From Leifsonia sp. PS1209 (lineage in GTDB: Bacteria > Actinomycetota > Actinomycetes > Actinomycetales > Microbacteriaceae): a stretch of 64,000 bases of DNA. The stretch covers positions 3,286,001-3,350,000 of the forward strand of contig NZ_CP051154.1 of NCBI RefSeq assembly GCF_012317045.1, in the 5' to 3' direction. The position numbers and the translations under genes were made by a program. The notes under the pieces were generated by a model. That model ran no database searches. It was not told the DNA's origin and saw only the letters and a program-made list of their open reading frames with translations. How positions within the stretch are numbered: the stretch's first letter is position 1; every line of letters begins with the position of its first letter. Positions 9,788 to 60,163 of the stretch are shown in pieces.

Positions 9788-10593
9788 GCACCGAGCCCAC
9801 CTTCGACCCGCGCCGCAAGGCCGCGATCCGCGACCTGGTCGTCACGCACGCGGCCGCAACGCAACCAGGCACCGCCCGCAAACGCACAGCGCTGATCGTG
9901 GCCCTGGTGCTGCTCGCCGTCAGCATCTCCGGCGGCACGGTGGCATACGCCCTCGGCACCGGACTTCTCGACCCGGCCCCGGTGGCGACCGCGACGCCGA
10001 CACCGACACCCACTCCGACGCCGACGCCGACCGAGACACCGACCCCGACGTCCACACCCACCACGGTGGCGCCCGTCGACGATCCGGCAGATCCGTCCAC
10101 CTGGACCATCCGTTTCGATGGTGTCGGTCCGGTCAGTCTCGGGACGCCTTTCGCGGCGCAGCACCAGATCATCCCCGCGTTCTCCGACGCCACCGACCCG
10201 ATCTGTGTCCCAGAACTGGCGTTCTTGCTCGCCCCCAACGGCCTCCGCTTCAGGTTCGTGGGCGCAGCCGACGGCTCCGACCAGACCGCGGCCATCGAGT
10301 TCGGCAATTTCGGAACCGGCGCCGACGACCACGCGAATACCCCGAAGACGCCTGAGGGCATCGGTATCAGTTCCACGGCCGAGGAACTGCTCGCCGCGTA
10401 TCCGAACATCCAGCAGACGGGCACGTACAACGACCTCGTCACCTACTACGGCCTGACGGACAACCAGGGCGGCTGGATCGTCTTCGCCGTGATGAACGGC
10501 GCGGTCACCGACATCCAGATCGCCAACGAAGCTGTCCTGCCGATCGGTCAGAAAAGAGTCAATTCCATCCCTTCCGAGCGCTGCCCCGCCTGA
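9784..10593 (+). CDS. membrane-anchored protein with Thr-Pro linker, coupled to the sigma factor
   Basis: A 269-residue protein. A cytoplasmic N-terminus (1-33) is followed by one membrane helix (34-56), then a (TP)n linker at about 68-95 and an extracytoplasmic domain of about 170 residues with two cysteines. It overlaps the sigma gene by four bases. Anti-sigma factors often have this order, but no zinc-binding HxxxCxxC motif is seen in the short cytoplasmic part, so its role as anti-sigma is only a guess. No known extracellular domain was recognised. Confidence 0.7.
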   Translation: MSTEPTFDPRRKAAIRDLVVTHAAATQPGTARKRTALIVALVLLAVSISGGTVAYALGTGLLDPAPVATATPTPTPTPTPTPTETPTPTSTPTTVAPVDDPADPSTWTIRFDGVGPVSLGTPFAAQHQIIPAFSDATDPICVPELAFLLAPNGLRFRFVGAADGSDQTAAIEFGNFGTGADDHANTPKTPEGIGISSTAEELLAAYPNIQQTGTYNDLVTYYGLTDNQGGWIVFAVMNGAVTDIQIANEAVLPIGQKRVNSIPSERCPA

Positions 10594-16921: not shown

Positions 16922-16947
16922 AAAACCCCTGGCTAACCAGGGGTTTT
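16922..16947. terminator. bidirectional terminator hairpin at the island's left end
   Basis: AAAACCCCTGG-CTAA-CCAGGGGTTTT is a perfect 11-bp stem with A/T tracts on both sides. Its right arm runs into the 31-bp attachment repeat. It probably terminated the gene left of the integration site. Confidence 0.8.
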
Positions 16948-16973
16948 CGTGGCGGTACCGGTGGGATTTGAAC
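16943..16973. repeat. left attachment site (distal copy of the tRNA-Ser 3' end)
   Basis: Thirty-one bases are identical to 60067-60097. The copy contains 24 bp of the tRNA 3' end (T-arm and acceptor stem, CCA as TGG on this strand) plus 7 bp beyond. After it the sequence changes to TCTAG and the tRNA is not continued, so no functional tRNA exists here. Confidence 0.9.
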
Positions 16974-17481: not shown

Positions 17482-17655
17482 TCAGTGAGCCCGGGCGCCG
17501 AGCGACGCTAGGAGCGTTTCGGTGTCCGAGTCTGTTATTTCAGTAATTTGCCTCTGCGCGGCACGCACGTCCTCTAGGACCTGGACAGCGTCGCGCGGAA
17601 AATACTGGCTGACGAATTCCTGGAGCTCTTGCACCCTGACCTTCTCATCACTCAT
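17482..17655 (-). CDS. small acidic protein, 57 aa, coupled to the Ntn-hydrolase gene
   Basis: A 57-residue frame (MSDEKVRVQELQEF.. to ..GARAH) whose ATG lies inside the last codons of the upstream hydrolase gene (8-bp overlap), so it should be translationally coupled. It is charged, appears helical (VQELQEFVSQ, VQVLEDVRAAQRQITEI) and has no cysteines or membrane segment. No family recognised. The position suggests a partner or regulator of the hydrolase. Confidence 0.6.
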   Translation of the reverse strand: MSDEKVRVQELQEFVSQYFPRDAVQVLEDVRAAQRQITEITDSDTETLLASLGARAH

Positions 17656-18988
17656 TGATGCGCCTCCCTCGAGCCGGTACAGCGGAGTGTGTGCTGGACC
17701 ATGACGGATTCAGTTCTTGGTCGAAGTAGTGCTTTCGTTTCAACCATACAAAACCATCCCCCCGTGACACCACTGCGACGTCAACCGCACCACCAACAGT
17801 TTGGGCCTCGTTAATCGAGACCCGTCGTTTCAACGTCGTGAGATTTACAAGGCTTTCGGCCATCGCGCCCAACTCGTCCTTCGGCAAGAACGCGACACTT
17901 TGAAGAAGAGGACCCTTCACGCTTGCCTGTTCATACTCAGCCATGTGGCTGAGGAAGTCCCCGACGGCGGCAGTGGACAAGTCGTTAACCGCTTCGACCA
18001 CGCCGGCCCGATCGGCCGGCGAAAGCCCCGCGAGCCGCGCATCTGCACTTACTGCGCCGCTCCCTTGTCCGCTCGCCCAGTCTGTCCAGAATTTGATCAT
18101 CTCTCCGCGAACCTGATCCTGGATCCCATCGGTAAAGGATCGAATCATGTCGCCTTGGGCGAAAGACTTGATGTCGCCCGGTACCGTCACAGCGATATCG
18201 GTTCTCGACTCCGAGACATCGAACGCGAGGAGGCGATCGTCATACATGGCTTTAGTGCGGAACTCGCGGAGACGCGGGTAGTACTCGTCATCACCGAAGC
18301 CGGCAAGGACGACTCCGGAATAGACCCCGTCGGCGTCGTTGCGCCCGAAAGCGCGAAGCAAGAGTCCCACTCTCAAATTCGCCCGAAGCGCGTCAACCAG
18401 AGGCAAGTTCTCAAACACTTGGTCGATCAAGGAATCCAGGAGTTGGCGGTGTCGGGTCCCCAGTGTCCGGAGGCTTGGTAACGGCTCTGGCCAGGCATCA
18501 AGGGCGTAATTCTTTCGCGCAAAGCCCCAATAGTCGCGGATATGCTGCGCAACCAGCCTCGCACCCCTCCGCTCGGTTATTTCCTTGCCGCTTGCGATTT
18601 CGCCCTGAACGCTCACGACGATGCTGGTCCGAATGCTTATCAAATCGCCAATGATTGTCTGAGTGAACGCCTCGTCTTGCTGGCGCCGGGAGAACAGTTC
18701 AGCATGGTCGCGTATGAACGCCTTGAAGTCTTCTACGTAGTCGTCGAGCGTTGGCATAGAGACGTCGCAGCGCTCCTCGCGGTACGCCTTGATGATCGAT
18801 TCCCAGGGGCGGAACGAGAGCTCCGCTGCGTTATAGATCATCACTCCGACGGGACGGCCCTTGATGAGCTCAAACAGCTTGTTGACCCCGTCGTAGACCT
18901 TAAGCCCAGTCGGCGTTGAGATGCTCACGGCGCTGTCCGCTGCAAGCGCCACGGCACTACGATTCAGAATCGCGATTTCCGTCGTCAA
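17648..18988 (-). CDS. putative proteasome-like Ntn-hydrolase
   Basis: A 446-residue protein. The start is a TTG with AGAGGAG seven bases upstream, giving an N-terminus of Met-Thr-Thr-Glu-Ile-Ala. Removal of Met would expose Thr2. The following VALAADSAV places an Asp exactly 16 residues after that Thr, as Asp17 stands to Thr1 in proteasome beta and HslV subunits, and KVYDGVNKLFEL then VGVMIYNAAEL resemble the next strands. The remaining 330 residues are largely helical and not recognised. Longer starts exist but would bury the Thr. Third gene of an XRE/ImmA operon, divergent from ubiquitin-like genes. Protease activity is inferred only. Confidence 0.6.
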   Translation of the reverse strand: MTTEIAILNRSAVALAADSAVSISTPTGLKVYDGVNKLFELIKGRPVGVMIYNAAELSFRPWESIIKAYREERCDVSMPTLDDYVEDFKAFIRDHAELFSRRQQDEAFTQTIIGDLISIRTSIVVSVQGEIASGKEITERRGARLVAQHIRDYWGFARKNYALDAWPEPLPSLRTLGTRHRQLLDSLIDQVFENLPLVDALRANLRVGLLLRAFGRNDADGVYSGVVLAGFGDDEYYPRLREFRTKAMYDDRLLAFDVSESRTDIAVTVPGDIKSFAQGDMIRSFTDGIQDQVRGEMIKFWTDWASGQGSGAVSADARLAGLSPADRAGVVEAVNDLSTAAVGDFLSHMAEYEQASVKGPLLQSVAFLPKDELGAMAESLVNLTTLKRRVSINEAQTVGGAVDVAVVSRGDGFVWLKRKHYFDQELNPSWSSTHSAVPARGRRINE

Positions 18989-19099
18989 AGATGCTCCTCT
19001 GGAAAGGAATGACCATAATCTAGCGGACACCGCGGCGACGCTCGCAGCACCCAAACGGGGCGGGATAAGCGCACAGGCTGAGCAACTCCTGGCACGAAT

Positions 19100-19657
19100 T
19101 CAGTGGCGAAACTTCTGGGAGGCACGAGCTGCGCGGACACGTTGACCCTTCATCTGATTCTGGGCAAACTGAGTGCTCACGTTGTAAGCGCTAGCGACCC
19201 GATTGTTGTCCCATCCGTCGAAGGCCATCCGCTCGGCAGCCTTCAACGGAATCAGGAGTTCACCCGCAAGGAAGTCCGCTTGCTTTTCTTGCTCGGCGCT
19301 GAAAACAAGGCTGTGGTTGTCTCCGAGGATGACGCCACTGAAGCGGTGTTCCAAAAGATGGTGTCCAAGCTCGTGAGCGATACTCGATCGCCTGCGGACG
19401 ATCGCGTGAGCATGGTTTTCGACGATTAGGCGAACCGATCCGAGCGGGATGAGCGCTGCGGACCACGCTGAAGCTCGCACTTGGGTGAAATGATCGACCG
19501 CCTCGGGGCACATCTCATGGAGCTCCGCCAACGAGTAGACCGAGATACCGTGCTGGTCGCAGAGCTGATAGGGGTCAAAGGGATCGCGAGGGCTGAGACC
19601 AAGCTCGGTTCTTTCCTCCACCGCGATCTCTCGCATCAGCTTCTGCGTCCACCTCAC
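19100..19657 (-). CDS. ImmA/IrrE family metallopeptidase
   Basis: A 185-residue zinc metallopeptidase. HELGH at 95-99 gives two zinc ligands and the catalytic Glu; EKQADFLAGELLIP supplies the third ligand region. In this family the protease cleaves its paired XRE repressor on a signal such as DNA damage. The GTG start overlaps the stop of the XRE gene (GTGA), the usual arrangement. It probably controls the divergent operons on both sides. Confidence 0.85.
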   Translation of the reverse strand: MRWTQKLMREIAVEERTELGLSPRDPFDPYQLCDQHGISVYSLAELHEMCPEAVDHFTQVRASAWSAALIPLGSVRLIVENHAHAIVRRRSSIAHELGHHLLEHRFSGVILGDNHSLVFSAEQEKQADFLAGELLIPLKAAERMAFDGWDNNRVASAYNVSTQFAQNQMKGQRVRAARASQKFRH

Positions 19658-20043
19658 TGGGTCCAGCTCCGCGCTTCACGCTCCGCTTCGAAGCGCTTCG
19701 CCGCAGCCCCGATGATCTCCTGGAGATAGTCGATGTCCTTATCGTCGAGATCCTTGCGGGCCCGCAGAAGCGGGACCAAACTCGCGACAAGCTCCGGTTC
19801 CGTGGTCTGGTCATGGTCGGAGGCGCGTTGCCGATAGAACGCCTCTGCCGGCATTTTTAGCCAGAGCGTCATTGCCGCGAACGCAGTTACGTCGGGTCTA
19901 AATCCATTAGCCATACGGGAGATCGTCGATGCGCTGACGCCTAGTTCTTTCGCCAGTTGACGCCAGGATAGATCCTTTGCCGTACGCGCAGCGTCCAGTG
20001 CGGAGTGTAGCGCTTTGACGTCAACGGTCGGAGCCTCGTCCAT
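19654..20043 (-). CDS. XRE family HTH regulator paired with ImmA/IrrE
   Basis: A 129-residue protein with an HTH at about 22-48 (SWRQLAKELGVSASTISRMANG) and a charged helical C-terminus ending in a coiled-coil-like EAEREARSW. It overlaps the ImmA gene by four bases. Two near-identical palindromes just upstream (20069-20124) are its likely operators, controlling its own operon and the divergent ubiquitin-like operon. Confidence 0.85.
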   Translation of the reverse strand: MDEAPTVDVKALHSALDAARTAKDLSWRQLAKELGVSASTISRMANGFRPDVTAFAAMTLWLKMPAEAFYRQRASDHDQTTEPELVASLVPLLRARKDLDDKDIDYLQEIIGAAAKRFEAEREARSWTQ

Positions 20044-20068
20044 GTGCTCGCCTTCTTGTTTCTCTCAC

Positions 20069-20124
20069 TGCTCGAAATGTCGAGCATTATCGTGTTAGTC
20101 TACTACTGCTCGATATTTCGAGCA
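20069..20124. promoter_or_regulatory. twin operators TGCTCGA-N4-TCGAGCA
   Basis: Perfect 7-bp inverted repeats with 4-bp spacers occur at 20069-20086 and 20107-20124, 38 bp centre to centre, in the 140-bp divergent region between the XRE gene and the ubiquitin-like gene. Probable XRE binding sites. Confidence 0.8.
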
Positions 20125-20183
20125 CCGAGCGATATCCGGCGCGTATCGAATCGGCAGCGAAAAAGCGCCAGAAGGGTTTCGCC

Positions 20184-20474
20184 ATGGACACCACAGCAAA
20201 CGGGAACGGTCAGGAGCACGACTCCGACATCGCTCACGAGCCGATCACCATCATCGTCAACACCCGGCCGCAAGCCTGGGCGAGGAAGAAGATCTCGTTC
20301 GAGGAGGTGGTCGCCCTTGCCTATCCGGGACAGCCGACTACCGAGCAGGACACCTTCACTGCCCGTTACAGCCGCGGCAACGACGGCCACGGGGCCGGTA
20401 CTCTCACGTCCGGCCAGGAAGTCGCCGTCAAGAAAGGGATGGTGTTCGATGTCCACCGCACCACTCGTTCGTAG
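20184..20474 (+). CDS. ubiquitin-like protein of the multi-ubiquitin family
   Basis: A 96-residue protein. A disordered N-terminus of about 20 residues leads into a beta-grasp-like domain with the family hallmarks ITIIVNTRP, ISFEEVVALAYPG, and GxLTSGQEVAVKKGMVFDV. It ends in HRTTRS with no di-glycine, which is common in this family. AGAAGGG precedes the ATG. The E1-like gene starts inside its last 26 bp. As a putative conjugated modifier it is the substrate of the downstream enzyme; conjugation has not been shown for this protein. Confidence 0.75.
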   Translation: MDTTANGNGQEHDSDIAHEPITIIVNTRPQAWARKKISFEEVVALAYPGQPTTEQDTFTARYSRGNDGHGAGTLTSGQEVAVKKGMVFDVHRTTRS

Positions 20475-21624
20475 CGCGGATCTTTCCCGCCTGCTTGACG
20501 ACGGATACGAGGTGGCCATCGCGGGTGGCCACCTCGTGGTCCGCCACATCCCTTACGTGACCGCCACCGGAGACGTCGAGTACGGATTCCTTACGTACCC
20601 CGTTACGGTCTCCGGTGACACGATCGTGTCCGGCACGGATCACCGCATCTGGTTCGGCGGCACCCTGCCGCACGCTGCAACCGGAAAGCCCTTGGGCTTC
20701 GCGACCCCGGAGCTGCATCCTGTGACCGAGTCAATCCAGGCTTCCTTCATGCTCTCGAGCAAGCCTGGTCCGGAGGGGTACGCCGATGAGTACTCCAAGG
20801 TCACCGCGTACTCCGACATGCTCGCTCACCCGGCCTACGCGGTTGACCCTTTAGCCACGGCCACGCCTGGCGCCTCCTGGACCGAGGTCGAGGAGGACAG
20901 CCCCTTCGTGTTTCGGGATACCGCGACAACCAGGGCCGGCCTCGCAGCCCTGTCGAACGCGTTCAGGAACGAGAAGGTCGTCATCGTCGGCGTTGGAGGA
21001 ACGGGAAGCTACATCCTCGACTTTGTCGCGAAGACACCCGTTGCCTCGATCACCCTCATCGACGGCGATCCCCTGGAGAACCACAACGCATTTCGAGCAC
21101 CCGGCGCCGTACCTCTTGACATACTTCGCCATCGACCCAAGAAGGTGGACTACTTCGGAGCGGTCTACTCGAACATGCATCGTAATGTCATCACGCACGG
21201 CGAATTCCTGGACGAAACAAACCTCCATCTTCTCGATGGCGCCACCTTCGTTTTCCTCGCATCCGACGACCCAACCAGCAAGACAGCGGCGATCGCCTGG
21301 CTGGAGGACAACGATGTGCCATTCATCGACGTCGGCATGGGAGTCGACGAGCTGGACGGCAAGCTCAGCGGGCTTCTCCGAGTCGTAACGAGTCTTCCTG
21401 GGCAGCGAGACCACGTGCACCGCCGCAATCTCATCCCGAATGCCGCCGCCCACGAGGACGACTACGGACGCAACATCCAGATCGCCGACCTCAATGCCCT
21501 GAACGCGGCTCTTGCCGTCATCCGATGGAAGCGGCATCTCGGCTTCTACGCGGATGCCACGGTTGAAGGCTCATCTACCTACTCGATCTTCGTAGGCGAC
21601 ATTGCGACCGAGGGGTTCGAGTGA
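20449..21624 (+). CDS. DUF6791-like plus ThiF/E1-like adenylyltransferase, cysteine-free
   Basis: A 391-residue fusion. The N-terminal domain (about 1-150) resembles DUF6791 (DDGYEVAIAGGHLVVRHIPYV, SSKPGPEGYADEY). The C-terminal E1/ThiF fold (about 172-375) has GVGGTGS at 181-187, IDGDPLENHNAFR at 204-216 and ASDD at 271-274, the ATP-binding and adenylation residues. The whole protein contains no cysteine, so it cannot form the usual E1 thioester. The start overlaps the ubiquitin-like gene by 26 bp and its stop overlaps the next GTG. It probably activates the modifier by adenylation. Confidence 0.78.
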   Translation: MSTAPLVRSADLSRLLDDGYEVAIAGGHLVVRHIPYVTATGDVEYGFLTYPVTVSGDTIVSGTDHRIWFGGTLPHAATGKPLGFATPELHPVTESIQASFMLSSKPGPEGYADEYSKVTAYSDMLAHPAYAVDPLATATPGASWTEVEEDSPFVFRDTATTRAGLAALSNAFRNEKVVIVGVGGTGSYILDFVAKTPVASITLIDGDPLENHNAFRAPGAVPLDILRHRPKKVDYFGAVYSNMHRNVITHGEFLDETNLHLLDGATFVFLASDDPTSKTAAIAWLEDNDVPFIDVGMGVDELDGKLSGLLRVVTSLPGQRDHVHRRNLIPNAAAHEDDYGRNIQIADLNALNAALAVIRWKRHLGFYADATVEGSSTYSIFVGDIATEGFE

Positions 21625-22034
21625 ACGCGCCCATCGACCGCCTACGGCCCGAGTTCGTCAGCTCCTTCCCCAGCTCCTTGCAACCCGGGGTGCTCTACGT
21701 GTCTACCGCGTATCGCACTTGCGGACATCTTTGTGCCTGCGGGTGCGGTGCCGAAGTGATTACCCCACTGGACTCGAATCAGTGGGCGATCACATTCGAC
21801 GGGCAAGACGTCACGCTGTCACCGTCGGTTGGCAACTGGGCATTGCCGTGCAAATCCCACTACCTGGTCAGTCGCGGACGGATTGTTTGGAGTCGGCGCT
21901 ATACCGACACACAGATCCAAGCTGCTCGCGATTTCGACCGCATCGCCCTTGGCATCGACACCCCATCTCCACAGGTCTCGACTCCGCAGACGAAATGGTG
22001 GCGTCGCTTGACTCGAGGGGGAAGGGCAAAATGA
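21621..22034 (+). CDS. DUF6527-like putative metal-binding protein
   Basis: A 137-residue protein with a cysteine/histidine cluster: C34, H36, C38, C40, C42, then C77 and H80 (PCKSHY). LSPSVGNW and the cluster match DUF6527 proteins, which are found with bacterial ubiquitin-like genes. The GTG overlaps the E1 stop (GTGA). It may act as a transfer (E2/E3-like) or substrate-binding component, which is inference. The C-terminus is basic. Confidence 0.72.
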   Translation: MNAPIDRLRPEFVSSFPSSLQPGVLYVSTAYRTCGHLCACGCGAEVITPLDSNQWAITFDGQDVTLSPSVGNWALPCKSHYLVSRGRIVWSRRYTDTQIQAARDFDRIALGIDTPSPQVSTPQTKWWRRLTRGGRAK

Positions 22035-22216
22035 GCTCTCTGCTTCGGACCATCGAGGCGTATCTGCCCACCGTTCTCGCTGCCGGGGTGACGACGGCGG
22101 CAGCGTGGCTAATGAAGAAGATTCTTCTCGGCATTCTGGTCGGCATTGGCCGGGCCTTCGGAGGTTTGATGCACATGCTCTGGAACGCGATCAAGTGGAA
22201 GATCGGCTGGTACTGA
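22031..22216 (+). CDS. 61-aa hydrophobic protein ending the ubiquitin-like operon
   Basis: The ATG overlaps the DUF6527 stop (ATGA). The protein has a helix at about 11-27 (LPTVLAAGVTTAAAWLM) and a second amphipathic, glycine- and tryptophan-containing region (31-60). No family recognised. The tight coupling suggests it belongs to the system, as a membrane effector, anchor or conjugation substrate. Confidence 0.6.
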   Translation: MSSLLRTIEAYLPTVLAAGVTTAAAWLMKKILLGILVGIGRAFGGLMHMLWNAIKWKIGWY

Positions 22217-40063: not shown

Positions 40064-41578
40064 TCAGGGCACCGGCTGGGTCAGCGGCGCCGAGTCTTTT
40101 GCGTCGAAAATCCGGTGATAGATGTCTTCCCCGAAACTGGTGGGAAGCGGTGGCCCGACGACAAGCCGGAAATCGCGGTTCCCACTCTGGTCCCTGTTGG
40201 CTCGCAGGAACAGCGCATCTGCGTCGCCCTGGTCAAATTGGCGGTGCGCGAAGTCATAGAGGTGAGTGACGACGGCAACTCGGATTCCTGCTGCGGTGAG
40301 CGCCCCAACGATGTGGCGGAGGATTTCGGAGCCCTCCCGTTCGTTCGTGGATGCGAACGATTCGTTGAGCAGCAACAGGCTGCCGGGGGTGAGCTGGTCG
40401 ACGATGCTGCTCATGCGGGCGAGTTCTTCATCAAGCTTGCCGCTTTGCATCAAGGGATCTTCTTCCCGTTTGAAATGGGTGAAGATCCCGGCGCGCACCC
40501 CGGTTTCGAAGCGGTCGGCGGGGACGAAAAAGCCGCATTGGGCCAGGAGTTGCGCTAGTCCCAAGCTGCGCAAGAACGTGGACTTCCCACCACGGTTCGC
40601 GCCGGTGATGATCAGGGTCGAACAGCCGGAGGCATCCACATCGTTCCCGATCACCGTGCTCTGGCTGATCAGCGCGAGCGCCGCATCGTAGAGATTCGTT
40701 GACCGGAAGCCGGCGTCGCTGGTGAGTAGGGGAATGCAGGTGCCGGCGCCGGTGCCTGTCAGCGCGTCCTGGAGGTTGATCGCTGCGAGGTAGAAGCCGA
40801 GTTCGGTGCGCAGCATGGTGAAGAAATTCTTGATGTGCTCGGTGGACTGGGCAAGAGCGTTGGCCACCAGGCTCAGGCCGTGGTTGCGCAGATCCGCGAG
40901 AGCGTTGAATCCGGCCTCGTCCCGGTCCGCGATGGTCATCGAGTGGGCAGGGTGGGCGAAACCGAGCCGTTCGAAGAGGGTCACTTTCTGCTGCAGCGGT
41001 CGCCGCAGCACCAGTTCGGTGCCCTTGTTTGCGTGTCCGAGACGGGCCCTGATCAGCACGCCGTGTCGGAACCGCAGCCGGCGCAGATGGTCGTCGATTT
41101 CGGCGAAGTAGTCGTCGGAGAGTTCGGCGCTCAGCATCCGGCAGAGCTCGGTGAAGGCTGGCGAGTGGAAGCCGGCGGCGTGCTCATCGGCGATCAGCCG
41201 GAGTTGGCGCAGGTGGAGGATGAACATTTCCAAGGCCTCGACCGAGCGATGCAGGCTCGAGGTGGGCGAGCCCAGCCCCCAGCCGTAGATCTTCTTTTCT
41301 TCGACCAACGTTTGCACGCACACGGCATACAGGCTCCGGAGCACCTCCGGACGGTTCAGTGCGTCGGTCAGCGCCTGTTGCCGGTAGGTGATGCGCTCCG
41401 GGTCGGTCAGCGGTTGCAGCAACGCGGCCTCGGCGACGTTGCGGAGGAACGCGTCGTCGTTTGCCATCACGGTCACGATCGCGTTCAGTTCCAGGTCGGC
41501 ACCGAGCTGGAGCTGCAGCCTGGTGGGGCGGATCGAAGTATCGAAGTCGATGTCCTTGAAAAGCAGGTGGGCTTTCAT
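40064..41578 (-). CDS. MutS-like ATPase A, 504 aa
   Basis: A protein keeping only the MutS core/lever region and ATPase domain, without the N-terminal mismatch-recognition domain. Walker A TGANRGGKST is at 325-334, Walker B LLLLNESF at 401-408, and the signature SSIVDQLTPGS and VTHLYDFA follow. The ATG overlaps the stop of the partner gene (ATGA). It probably forms a heterodimer with it. MutS-like genes are among those known to be linked to fluoride riboswitches; their role is unclear. Confidence 0.83.
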   Translation of the reverse strand: MKAHLLFKDIDFDTSIRPTRLQLQLGADLELNAIVTVMANDDAFLRNVAEAALLQPLTDPERITYRQQALTDALNRPEVLRSLYAVCVQTLVEEKKIYGWGLGSPTSSLHRSVEALEMFILHLRQLRLIADEHAAGFHSPAFTELCRMLSAELSDDYFAEIDDHLRRLRFRHGVLIRARLGHANKGTELVLRRPLQQKVTLFERLGFAHPAHSMTIADRDEAGFNALADLRNHGLSLVANALAQSTEHIKNFFTMLRTELGFYLAAINLQDALTGTGAGTCIPLLTSDAGFRSTNLYDAALALISQSTVIGNDVDASGCSTLIITGANRGGKSTFLRSLGLAQLLAQCGFFVPADRFETGVRAGIFTHFKREEDPLMQSGKLDEELARMSSIVDQLTPGSLLLLNESFASTNEREGSEILRHIVGALTAAGIRVAVVTHLYDFAHRQFDQGDADALFLRANRDQSGNRDFRLVVGPPLPTSFGEDIYHRIFDAKDSAPLTQPVP

Positions 41579-43119
41579 GCGTGGATCCTTTCCCGCAACC
41601 GTGTCGCCGTCAGCCCGTATCGGGCCGCCATCGCCGTGGCGTGCGCGAGCCCGTCCGCCGGCCGACGACGGATGCGGAAGGTGCGCGTGGTGACCTCAGC
41701 CGGGTCGACCTCAGCGACCATGCTGACCGTACCCGGCCCGAGCGCTGAGAGCTCGTCGACGAACGTGACATACACCCCGAGTGCCCCCAGGGTGATGATC
41801 CGGTCGAGGATCTGTGTGCCGAGGAAGAGGGCGTCGCTCACGGTGGTCGAGGTGAAGATCTCATTCAGGATCACGATGCTCTCCCCGCTCGCCTGCTGAA
41901 GGATCGCGTGAACACGCAGCAGGTCGTCCTCGAGCTTGCCGGTGAGGTTCTGTAGGTTCTCCTGCCGTTCGAAGTGGGTGAAGACGCGGTCGAACAGGTG
42001 CAGCGTCGCAGAGGACGCCGCAACCGGCAGACCCAGCGCTGCCAGATAATGCAGCTGCCCGAAGGCGCGGGCAAACGTGGTCTTGCCGCCCTGGTTCGCG
42101 CCGGTGACGACAAGAACGCGCTCCTCACCGGTGAGCGAGAAGTCGTTGCCGACAACCGGGTGTGCTCCTCCGGCGAGCTTCGCGGCCAGCACCAGGTCGA
42201 CGGCGTCGCGCACCGAACTCGTGGGCTCTCTGGTCACCGTCGGAAGACACGTGGCCAGGTCGGGTATCCGTTCCAGATACTCCAGGTAGGCGAGGTAGAA
42301 CTGCACCTCCCGGTCGAAGCGTGCGATCATCGCGGATTGGAACACGGCGTGCTTCTGCACGAACCGGGCAAGAGCATCGAACTGATCGGGGAACACCTCA
42401 CCGACCAGGCCGAGGATCCCAGCCTCGACGTGGTTCATCGCAACCGGATCCTGCCGGCTCTGCAGCTTGGACGCGACCTCGCTCTGCCGAAACTTCGAGA
42501 ACGTAGCGGCGACGTCGGCGCTGTAGTCGGCTTCCTCGGTCAGCGGGAACACGCTGATTCTGCCGCCCTCGATCAGGAACTCATACCGGATCTGCTCGAG
42601 CCGGTCAGTGGTCTGGTCGGCATCCTCCGCGAGCGTCGAGAACGCCTCGGAGGCCACGTATTGATCCAACTGGTCGCGGAATCGCAGCATGCCCGAGGAG
42701 GCCAGGTCGGCGTCCATGAACCCGGAGGCCAGGCCGCCAACGGCTCGCAGATAGCAGGTCACCGCCTCCAAAGCGACCCGCTGCTTCTGTTGCCGGTAGC
42801 GCAGGGAGTCGGCCTCTGCCAGCAGGGTCCGCATGGCGCGCATTCCCTCCGCGAAACCGTGGATGCTCTTCCTCACCCGCGGTTGGGCGAGGTCCTGGAT
42901 GACAGCGTGCCGGAACTGCACCGCGGCAGCACTAGTTAGCGGTGTGAAGAAGTACGGCCTCAACTCGTACTGGTCACGGCCGGCAGTCACATCAGCGACC
43001 AGTTGGTCAAGATTCAAGTCGCCGAACGCATCCGACTCGACCTCCACCAGCTCGATGGCGGGCTCGTTTGGGGAGGATACGAAGAGGATGCTGGCCGAAG
43101 GTGCAGTGTTCTCTGCCAA
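41575..43119 (-). CDS. MutS-like ATPase B, 514 aa
   Basis: Second MutS-like ATPase, with Walker A TGANQGGKTT at about 339-348, Walker B IVILNEIF and switch-like YVTFVDELS. No mismatch-binding domain. The start is set at TTG 43119, six bases after GAGGAG. A longer frame opens at 43173 but its extra 18 codons lie in the fluoride riboswitch and are rejected. First gene of the minus-strand fluoride-controlled operon. Confidence 0.83.
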   Translation of the reverse strand: MAENTAPSASILFVSSPNEPAIELVEVESDAFGDLNLDQLVADVTAGRDQYELRPYFFTPLTSAAAVQFRHAVIQDLAQPRVRKSIHGFAEGMRAMRTLLAEADSLRYRQQKQRVALEAVTCYLRAVGGLASGFMDADLASSGMLRFRDQLDQYVASEAFSTLAEDADQTTDRLEQIRYEFLIEGGRISVFPLTEEADYSADVAATFSKFRQSEVASKLQSRQDPVAMNHVEAGILGLVGEVFPDQFDALARFVQKHAVFQSAMIARFDREVQFYLAYLEYLERIPDLATCLPTVTREPTSSVRDAVDLVLAAKLAGGAHPVVGNDFSLTGEERVLVVTGANQGGKTTFARAFGQLHYLAALGLPVAASSATLHLFDRVFTHFERQENLQNLTGKLEDDLLRVHAILQQASGESIVILNEIFTSTTVSDALFLGTQILDRIITLGALGVYVTFVDELSALGPGTVSMVAEVDPAEVTTRTFRIRRRPADGLAHATAMAARYGLTATRLRERIHA

Positions 43120-43125
43120 TGGGTT

Positions 43126-43212
43126 CTCCTCTACCTGGACGCCGTGCAGCGCGGTGGTGCAGGTAGAAGCCATTAGCGGACGGTCCGCGGTTGCTGGCGA
43201 GCTTCATCGCCA
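43126..43212 (-). ncRNA. fluoride (crcB) riboswitch 2, before the MutS-like operon
   Basis: The closest match to the consensus. P1 is TGGCG/CGCCA around loop ATGAAGCT (43195-43212); P3 is GCGGA/TCCGC; the loop GAAGC can pair with GCTTC (43166-43170) in TAATGGCTTCTACC. The alternative hairpin CTACCTG (43160-43166) with CAGGTAG (43131-43137) consumes the pseudoknot end and adjoins GAGGAG (43126-43131), so translation is likely controlled. Confidence 0.9.
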
Positions 43213-58653: not shown

Positions 58654-58790
58654 GGAACCAGTCTGCCCGAGACTGCTGTCCTTGTTACCCGCGATGCCTC
58701 TCCGGAAGACGAAATGTCAGCGCTCGCACGTAGCCTGGCGCCGCTCACTTCATCGCGGCGCAAAGCCACGATCGGCGATTGGAGCTGAGG

Positions 58791-59903
58791 ATGGGGAGCG
58801 TACATCCATACGAGACAGCCGGCGGCAAGCGCTACCGGGTCCAGTACAGAACACCCGAGCGCGACCTGACCGGGAAGCGCGGCTTTCGAACAAAGCGAGA
58901 CGCTGAACTCTTCTTGGCCTCCGTTGAAGTCGCGAAGGCGCGAGGCGAGTTCGTCGACGCTCGGGCGTCACGATCTACGATCAGTACGCTCGGTACCGAG
59001 TGGCTGGCCAACCAGCATCATCTGAAGCCATCGTCACTCCGGCCGGTTGAGATCGCCTGGCGTTTGCACGTGGAGCCCAAATGGGGAAACCGCCACGTTG
59101 GCGAGATCCGTCATTCGGAAGTTCAGAACTGGGTTACGGCTTTCACCAAGGGCGAAGACAGACCGCGCTCAGCGACAACCGTCCTTCGTGCCTACGGTGT
59201 TCTTGCGGGAATCCTAGACACCGCCGTAATGGACCGTCGGATCCCTTCAAACCCTGCTCGCGGCGTCAACCTCCCTCGCAAGCTGAAAGGCAAGCATAAG
59301 TACCTCACCCATTCGCAGGTGGATCTCCTGGCCAATAAGGCGAAGAAGCACAAGCCTTTAGTTCTCTTTCTCGCCTACACCGGGCTGCGTTGGGGCGAGG
59401 CGACCGCACTTCGGGTTCGGGACATCGACCTCTCTCGGCGACGCGTGGATGTTCATGAAAACGCTGTCGAGGTGTCTGGCACCATTCATGTCGGCACGCC
59501 GAAAACAGGCGAGTCACGGAGTGTCCCCTTTCCTCCGTTCCTGGTGCCGCTGCTCGAAGCATTGTCGGAAACCAAGACGCCTTCACAGCTGCTATTCGGA
59601 GATGGCATCAGCTACCTGCACCAACCCGATCGCCGTCGCGGCTGGTATGTCTCGGCGATCGCCAGATCACAAGCGGCGGACCCAGAGTTCCCGCGAGTCA
59701 CGATTCACGACCTCAGGCACACGGCCGCAAGCCTGGCGATCAGCGCTGGTGCGAACGTGAAGGCCGTACAACGAATGTTGGGCCACTCTTCCGCCGCAAT
59801 GACGCTCGACACGTACGCCGATCTTTTCGACGACGACCTGGACTCCGTCGCGGTCGCGCTTGACGCTGCTCGTGACCGGGCCATCATGTCCGCGGGTCGA
59901 TGA
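58791..59903 (+). CDS. tyrosine site-specific integrase
   Basis: A 370-residue phage-type integrase. An N-terminal arm-binding domain (about 1-60), a core-binding domain (about 62-155) and a catalytic domain with R200 (TGLRWGE), H306-x-x-R309 (HDLRH), H332 (LGHSS) and Tyr342 (LDTYAD). The set is complete. ATG with GGAG six bases upstream; a TTG four codons earlier is the alternative. It lies beside the tRNA-Ser attachment site and should catalyse excision and integration of the island. Confidence 0.93.
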   Translation: MGSVHPYETAGGKRYRVQYRTPERDLTGKRGFRTKRDAELFLASVEVAKARGEFVDARASRSTISTLGTEWLANQHHLKPSSLRPVEIAWRLHVEPKWGNRHVGEIRHSEVQNWVTAFTKGEDRPRSATTVLRAYGVLAGILDTAVMDRRIPSNPARGVNLPRKLKGKHKYLTHSQVDLLANKAKKHKPLVLFLAYTGLRWGEATALRVRDIDLSRRRVDVHENAVEVSGTIHVGTPKTGESRSVPFPPFLVPLLEALSETKTPSQLLFGDGISYLHQPDRRRGWYVSAIARSQAADPEFPRVTIHDLRHTAASLAISAGANVKAVQRMLGHSSAAMTLDTYADLFDDDLDSVAVALDAARDRAIMSAGR

Positions 59904-60025: not shown

Positions 60026-60071
60026 AAAACGCCCCGGATCCCAATGTTTATAAGGGATCGCGGGGCGTTTT
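60026..60071. terminator. terminator between integrase and tRNA-Ser
   Basis: AAAACGCCCCG-GATCCC pairs with GGGATC-G-CGGGGCGTTTT (one bulged base) around an 11-base loop; A and T tracts on both sides make it work in both directions. Confidence 0.85.
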
Positions 60072-60097
60072 CGTGGCGGTACCGGTGGGATTTGAAC
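60067..60097. repeat. right attachment site within the tRNA-Ser 3' end
   Basis: Thirty-one bases identical to 16943-16973, covering seven bases beyond the tRNA and 24 bases of its 3' end. Confidence 0.9.
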
Positions 60098-60163
60098 CCA
60101 CGGTGGGCTTTCACCCACACAACTTTTCGAGAGTTGCACCTTCGGCCGCTCGGACACGGTACC
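60074..60163 (-). tRNA. tRNA-Ser (anticodon CGA)
   Basis: A 90-nt gene. The acceptor stem is GGTACCG/CGGTACC with an encoded CCA, the anticodon loop CTCGAAA has anticodon CGA, there is a long variable arm typical of serine tRNAs (TGTGGGTGAAAGCCCAC, with the arms GTGGG and CCCAC), and the T-arm is GTGGG-TTCAAAT-CCCAC. It remains intact after integration. Confidence 0.95.

Follow-up and report, generated by a model that had tools for sequence, protein, structure and literature searches.

A rare, recurrent pairing of a ubiquitin-like conjugation cassette with a PMI-4-like proteasome homolog in Leifsonia sp. PS1209

We have analyzed a stretch of 64,000 nucleotides (nt) from the genome of Leifsonia sp. 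PS1209 (4.09 Mb, single contig; G000:C1:3286001-3350000), hereafter called the window, in which positions 17482-22216 hold a divergent locus of 4 genes read leftward and 4 read rightward. The rightward genes encode a ubiquitin-like conjugation cassette, and the leftward genes include a putative regulator pair and a proteasome-like hydrolase. All of the genes that the original prediction had assigned to the 2 arms were present, as judged by the list of open reading frames (ORFs) and by family profiles. The features are as follows, with protein lengths in amino acids (aa).

17482-17655, minus strand: small ORF of 57 aa from the ORF list, which overlaps the hydrolase stop by 8 nt.
17648-18988, minus strand: 446-aa proteasome-beta-like N-terminal-nucleophile (Ntn) hydrolase, PMI-4-like, with predicted Thr1 = T2, Asp17 = D18 and Lys33 = K37.
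19100-19657, minus strand: 185-aa ImmA/IrrE-type metallopeptidase, CapP-like (Peptidase_M78, E 1.1e-14; PADLOC capP, 7.4e-12).
19654-20043, minus strand: 129-aa XRE-type repressor, CapH-like (HTH_3, 1.9e-8; PADLOC capH, 1.3e-4).
20067-20124, no strand: pair of palindromic, operator-like copies in the region that separates the 2 arms, from the sequence.
20184-20474, plus strand: 96-aa single-domain modifier of the multi-ubiquitin family, with a C-terminal Ser (Multi_ubiq, 2.3e-13).
20449-21624, plus strand: 391-aa E1-like protein with DUF6791 (1.7e-41) and ThiF (1.6e-10) domains and 0 Cys.
21621-22034, plus strand: 137-aa DUF6527 protein, predicted to bind metal (CxCxC...CxSH; DUF6527, 1.1e-22).
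22031-22216, plus strand: 61-aa hydrophobic ORF, with all family matches below the cut-off.

By their coordinates, the XRE and ImmA genes overlap by 4 nt, the modifier and E1 genes by 26 nt, and the E1/DUF6527 and DUF6527/61-aa gene pairs by 4 nt each; the gap between the ImmA and hydrolase genes is 111 nt. The 140-nt region common to both arms contains 2 copies of a 20-nt palindrome, at 20067-20086 and 20105-20124, which are 90% alike and 38 nt apart. A shuffle test on this region, which considered perfect 8-bp arms, gives the palindromes no support because the real region contains no such arms. The 61-aa ORF has no relative among the loci compared.

The 446-aa gene begins with TTG, preceded by AGAGGAG (read by eye), and its product begins Met-Thr-Thr-Glu. 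The original prediction had described this protein as an Ntn hydrolase with an N-terminal Thr and an equivalent of Asp17, a claim that was to fall if the protein lacked the Ntn fold. A structure model bears the claim out: the modelled chain has the proteasome-type Ntn fold, that of proteasome beta, and the fold-search rows shown for it are proteasome subunits and Anbu. The N-terminal nucleophile and the equivalents of Asp17 and Lys33 show full conservation (95 of 95 and 103 of 103 rows); the register that makes K37 the equivalent of Lys33 was judged by eye. The protein belongs to the same fold class as HslV, Anbu, BPH and 20S beta, but differs from them in its length of 446 aa with 2 helical insertions, and no Pfam model matches it. 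When the hydrolase profile was used as a query, Cullin-3 (E 0.005) outscored proteasome beta (0.16); the Cullin-3 matches lie within the helical insertion, and we took them as chance.

The closest description is that of PMI-4, a large class of uncharacterized proteasome homologs (Fuchs, Alva and Lupas 2021, PMC8665760). The window protein has the proteasome fold, the Thr/Asp/Lys site and, as model helices within residues 101-214 and 291-366, both of the insertions placed after H1/H2 and between H3/H4 in section 3.3 of that report, a pattern that is also found in PMI-3. PMI-4 and the relatives of the window protein are both spread across bacteria, archaea (Euryarchaeota for PMI-4) and phages. 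That report gives no telling genomic context, whereas here the gene adjoins a small ORF and, at a minority of loci, also a ubiquitin-like cassette.

When one genome per species was scanned, 467 hydrolase relatives were recovered from many bacterial phyla and from archaea, of which we kept the best 80, a choice that leans towards the window's protein; the best 80 of 155 relatives were likewise kept from viral contigs. The close relatives P0001-P0020 are 65-76% identical. Ten plasmid records and 13 records of a phage collection also carry the hydrolase. Nine of the latter are streptococcal, 2 phages and 7 satellite phages, and in 8 of these 9 a few hundred bases at most separate the gene from the record end. 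In most of these satellite phages the PMI-4-like hydrolase is end-of-record cargo; one of the 9 records was viewed closely, and in L185 a short ORF comes after the gene. Within a fixed range behind the hydrolase, a small ORF of at least 40 aa was present at 71 of the 80 genome loci and 68 of the 80 viral loci, as raw counts uncorrected for chance. A profile of 51 non-actinobacterial members of this small-ORF family matched 57 loci in position and only 2 elsewhere among 27,574 short ORFs, a count that is partly circular, since it includes the 51 training members and the first seeds were picked by motif and place. As actinobacterial test cases, L048 (2.5e-9) and L038 (0.0028) score with this profile, and Jiangella L010 (2.6) and the 57-aa ORF of the window (E 8.0, not significant) do not. 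We therefore discarded the idea that the 57-aa ORF is related to this family in sequence; it is the positional equivalent of the small ORF behind many hydrolase relatives.

Other neighbors of the hydrolase are diverse. Among 137 nearest-neighbor ORFs at the 80 genome loci, called crudely by length (23 of 160 were not taken, being at a contig end, beyond 4 kb or longer than 900 aa), no Pfam family occurred more than 3 times, and a conserved unfoldase partner was rejected on this count. A few restriction-modification and other defense models match hydrolase neighbors. An ImmA-hydrolase fixed pair was also considered and rejected, as the ImmA profile matched in only 12 of 187 loci, some of them with the cassette only.

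Turning to the cassette, the original prediction had placed the multi-ubiquitin/E1/DUF6527 neighborhood among known types, and it does fit the 6e operons of Iyer, Burroughs and Aravind (2006, PMC1779556). As described there, these encode 1-3 ubiquitin-like repeats, an E1 whose N-terminal fusion partner is either JAB or an uncharacterized domain, in some cases an inactive E2/RWD domain, and a Cys/His-rich putative metal protein; the window has a multi-ubiquitin modifier, an E1 with N-terminal DUF6791 and the Cys/His protein. It differs in that a proteasome-like hydrolase is not among the genes in the 6e description, and in that the window has no E2/RWD-like match. Against chains of the PDB, the window modifier matched a solved multi-ubiquitin protein (1.7e-6), and the matches to the ThiF part of the E1 profile were led by TcdA chains (7.9e-9), with Citrobacter BubCD (2.9e-8) next; DUF6791 and DUF6527 matched nothing convincing there. 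The Bub pathway, of which Citrobacter BubA, BubB and BubCD are the chains in the PDB, uses oxyester intermediates. The window differs from it in having DUF6791 in place of JAB in its E1, with no BubB-like or JAB match.

After repeat views of one locus had been left out by hand from the checks of modifier relatives and DUF6791 cassettes, the C-terminal residue of the modifier was Ser in 13 of 14 relatives and Ala in one, and the 26-nt modifier/E1 overlap (window 20449-20474) recurred in 11 of the 14. The window E1, for which the AlphaFold model has a pLDDT of 86.9, contains no cysteine, so that a Cys thioester on this protein is excluded and it lacks the catalytic residue of a canonical thioester E1. 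Three such cysteine-free proteins occur among 120 listed relatives, and across 59 aligned E1 rows, the column richest in Cys has this residue in 48 rows and His in the window.

To view the cassette from its own side, we took the E1 or the modifier as the starting point and chose 24 loci (E1-first loci), excluding already recognized pairs, among them H64 and H80. Eleven are plasmid loci selected from 2 lists (119 and 178 records); the others comprise 3 from actinobacterial genomes, 3 from viral contigs and 7 from genomes that encode a hydrolase elsewhere. Short alphaproteobacterial loci (about 3 kb) are outside this pick. The viral scan with the E1 alignment gave 3 loci, from patterns drawn from close actinobacterial sequences, and is not comparable with the hydrolase scan (155). 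None of the 24 loci has the hydrolase, and in 9 of them the XRE and ImmA profiles both match somewhere; annotation adds ImmA in L006 and L243. XRE/ImmA genes also stand directly divergent to hydrolase-free cassettes, for example in Arthrobacter (L007) and in a genome of the same genus (G403), which has XRE/ImmA, E1 and DUF6527 without the hydrolase. The switch therefore goes with the cassette, and the division into a left and a right arm that the original prediction had drawn is an unnatural one: XRE/ImmA accompanies cassettes that have no hydrolase, and the hydrolase mostly occurs with no cassette.

The same 24 loci weigh against 2 of the roles that the hydrolase could have in the cassette. 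It might be a deconjugating or maturing peptidase that takes the place of the JAB absent from the window E1, where DUF6791 stands in the position of the JAB of Bub-type E1s. Yet DUF6791 cassettes among the 24 loci have no hydrolase, a Rhizobium cassette (L002) has both a JAB match and the hydrolase, and the conserved Ser is already the last residue of the modifier, which leaves no evident tail for removal; we consider this role very improbable. Still less credible to us is a connectase-like ligase that would join peptides, such as the modifier to its target, rather than destroy proteins. The idea draws on connectase, a proteasome homolog described as a protein ligase (PMC8665760), and on the window having an E1 without Cys and a locus in which no E2 family was matched. 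The fold-search rows listed proteasome subunits and Anbu, although the absence of connectase from those rows is no test, and the 24 cassettes do without the hydrolase.

The original prediction was also to fall if the 2 arms did not occur together in other genomes; they do. Besides the window, the pairing occurs in Rhizobium (4 plasmid records) and Mesorhizobium, and in metagenome-assembled genomes (MAGs) of Caulobacter, an Acidimicrobiaceae member and an HGW actinobacterium. The arrangement varies: in the window the hydrolase lies behind immA; in L008 it starts at 10001 on the same strand as the E1, which stops at 9986, and thus 14 nt after it; in Mesorhizobium and Caulobacter it is in a divergent operon; and in Rhizobium it faces the regulator genes of the cassette. 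The E1 is of the DUF6791 type in the window, and a JAB-bearing, BubCD-like protein in Rhizobium, where the L002 E1 matches BubCD over its full length (1.1e-133) and the modifier matches BubA and BubB.

In the Rhizobium cassettes a serine protease gene annotated as ClpP (SDH-type by Pfam in L002) follows DUF6527, in addition to the proteasome-like gene, at L002:10867-11751, L180:13602-14210, L181:13655-14203 and L248:10863-11423. Between the hydrolase and the Bub cassette lie a helix-turn-helix gene, a short ORF and a protein of 205-215 aa (L002:6669-7316, L180:9426-10043), which appears ADP-ribosyltransferase-like by eye and has no Pfam match for L002. In L181 the hydrolase and the modifier are each read as 2 ORFs. 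The Mesorhizobium and Caulobacter pairings share a related protein by profile match (L004:4931-5524 and L084:9034-9660), which is sigma-factor-like by eye, with no Pfam match for L004. A further Bub-type cassette, on a Salmonella IncHI2 plasmid (L244), adjoins the gamma-mobile-trio genes gmtX and gmtY.

The pairing is rare. Multi_ubiq matched anywhere in 10 of the 80 hydrolase genomes and had no match in 70. The cassette was adjacent in 3 (L008, L048 and L084) and was not seen adjacent in 77, in many of which contig ends cut the flanks. In the other 7 genomes Multi_ubiq is on other contigs, as judged by lengths that differ from that of the hydrolase contig (L057 and L058 were also checked by translation), and these were rejected as adjacent pairs, as was L063, which has a ThiF gene about 7 kb away and no Multi_ubiq match in its genome. 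Three of 80 compares with 0.05 expected under uniform placement, or 0.5 if a ten-fold island effect is assumed (P 0.015 in that case), the 80 being the best matches to a window-led query and not a random sample. Among the 10 plasmid records, 5 have an adjacent cassette, but as 4 are from Rhizobium and 1 from Mesorhizobium these are not 5 independent cases; the records from Pantoea, Enterococcus, Ruegeria and Hyphomicrobiales and the Rhizobium WYJ-E13 fragment have none within 6-8 kb or to the record end.

Further surveys drew genomes by kinship around the window and the Caulobacter MAG. Across Actinomycetota the hydrolase was found in 5 of 396 genomes (3 of them partial: G232, where the match covers 24 residues, G263 and G366) and DUF6791 in 3 of 396; the window's genome alone has both. 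The family draw had the hydrolase in 3 of 388 genomes; the genus draw had hydrolase and cassette in 2 of 28 each, and again both only in the window's genome. G419, G1147 and G1197 have partial or distant hydrolase matches and, like the 3 partial ones above, were set aside or taken as weak. For the Alphaproteobacteria around the Caulobacter MAG, hydrolase and Multi_ubiq were found in 16 and 10 of 337 genomes, with both in that MAG and, on different contigs, in G506; in the 336 genomes besides this chosen center the 2 never lay together.

On a quick tree of 111 hydrolases with 8 cassette-linked rows, the cassette label requires 4 changes (no fewer than 3 if judged by the starred branches), compared with 7.8 when shuffled, and none of 500 shuffles was as low; the 3 Rhizobium rows are near-copies, which help this result, and losses are not told from gains in these counts. 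Five of the 8 rows fall in one 14-row group (SH-aLRT 89). Jiangella L010, the sister of the window protein, has no cassette in 10 kb on each side and no Multi_ubiq in its genome. In the aggregate, the pairing is real and recurrent and is probably not random, and neither module needs the other.

These observations bear on 2 opposite readings. The tag-and-degrade scheme raised by the original prediction, by which the modifier would be conjugated to phage or host proteins and the hydrolase would degrade or trim the conjugates, gains from the recurrence across lineages with both types of E1, from the same-strand run in L008 and the excess of adjacent cases, and from the added serine protease of Rhizobium. 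Set against these are the absence of the hydrolase from the 24 E1-first cassettes, a pick that excludes known pairs, the 70 hydrolase genomes with no Multi_ubiq match, and the family-profile searches, in which no unfoldase family was matched among the 8 locus proteins. Also, the long insertions may block ring assembly, as section 3.3 of PMC8665760 discusses. Because the hydrolase mostly occurs without the cassette, and XRE/ImmA also with cassettes that lack the hydrolase, the degradation scheme becomes a proposal for a minority arrangement, which we think unlikely; an anti-phage function is plausible only from context. At the other extreme, the modules might be unrelated passengers in a cargo hot spot of mobile elements. 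Both occur on plasmids or phage-type DNA, the E1-first count is 0 of 24, and the alphaproteobacterial genomes keep them apart; however, the window has a common regulatory region and a same-strand run behind immA, L008 has its own run, and the label clusters on the tree with at least 3 changes. We regard pure hitch-hiking as possible but doubtful; it overlaps with the explanation we favor, which leaves cooperation open.

The locus lies within, and roughly 0.5 kb from the left border of, a 43-kb integrative and probably mobilizable element (16943-60097), as indicated by repeats, a tRNA-Ser gene and mobility genes:

16943-16973, no strand: attL-like 31-bp repeat, with an exact copy at 60067-60097.
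60067-60097, no strand: attR-like 31-bp repeat, which spans the 3' end of tRNA-Ser; the integrase gene adjoins.

The tRNA-Ser gene is at 60074-60163 on the minus strand, and the phage-type integrase gene at 58779-59903 is next to the right repeat. Of 10 inner genes scanned, 4 were ParB-like, ArdC-like, a TrwC-type relaxase/helicase and a phage-type integrase. GC content at the locus is 0.58-0.61, down from about 0.69. Inside the element, 2 overlapping genes (40064-41578 and 41575-43173) each encode a MutS domain V.

With modest confidence, we lean towards an explanation in which the locus comprises 2 separable cargo modules that share a single stress-type switch, close to the left border of this element. 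Module A would be a 6e/Bub-like conjugation cassette (modifier, DUF6791-E1 and DUF6527) with its own CapH/CapP-type regulator, and module B an autonomous PMI-4-like hydrolase with N-terminal Thr and a small following ORF, which, from its place behind immA, would be expressed along with the regulator. DNA damage or infection may activate ImmA, which would cleave XRE; in CapH+CapP switches, single-stranded DNA activates cleavage of the repressor. Release of the paired putative operators would then derepress both arms. The E1 would adenylate the modifier, and attachment would follow a route without an E1 cysteine; the hydrolase, once its Met was removed, would cleave proteins through Thr1, Asp17 and Lys33.

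This explanation draws on the fold and residues of the hydrolase, on the XRE/ImmA genes of 9 of the 24 hydrolase-free loci, on the PADLOC similarities to capP and capH, on the 70 of 80 hydrolase genomes without Multi_ubiq together with the phages, satellite phages and diverse neighbors of the hydrolase, and on the element borders and integrase. A small helix-turn-helix repressor with an M78 protease beside an immune-type operon also resembles the CapH+CapP arrangement, and PMC13373217 counts CapW or CapH+CapP in 219 of 544 Bub operons. Some observations weigh against it. The capH match of the window XRE is weak and is outscored by the RmrA models of PADLOC (7.8e-8), and the recurrence in several lineages, the L008 run and the clustering of the cassette label on the tree all go beyond what passive co-location needs.

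Bacterial ubiquitin-like conjugation is established, and a dedicated protease that uses the tag lies outside the systems as described in the sources cited here. For PMI-4, the short ORF behind the gene and the repeated Bub/6e neighborhood offer 2 concrete handles, and the Rhizobium and Microbacterium-type loci make it testable in laboratory strains whether a bacterial ubiquitin-like tag feeds a proteasome homolog; the Rhizobium cassettes, with their extra ClpP/SDH-type serine protease, are the best place for such a test of tag-and-degrade. The pairing allows one to ask whether protein tagging in some bacteria leads to destruction, much as it does in human cells. If, on more than one occasion, a single damage-responsive switch has come to link conjugation of the cysteine-free or Bub type with a single-chain proteasome homolog dedicated to it, a prospect that we hold only tentatively and think improbable, the locus would represent a minimal anti-phage analogue of the ubiquitin-proteasome system and would give PMI-4 its first function.

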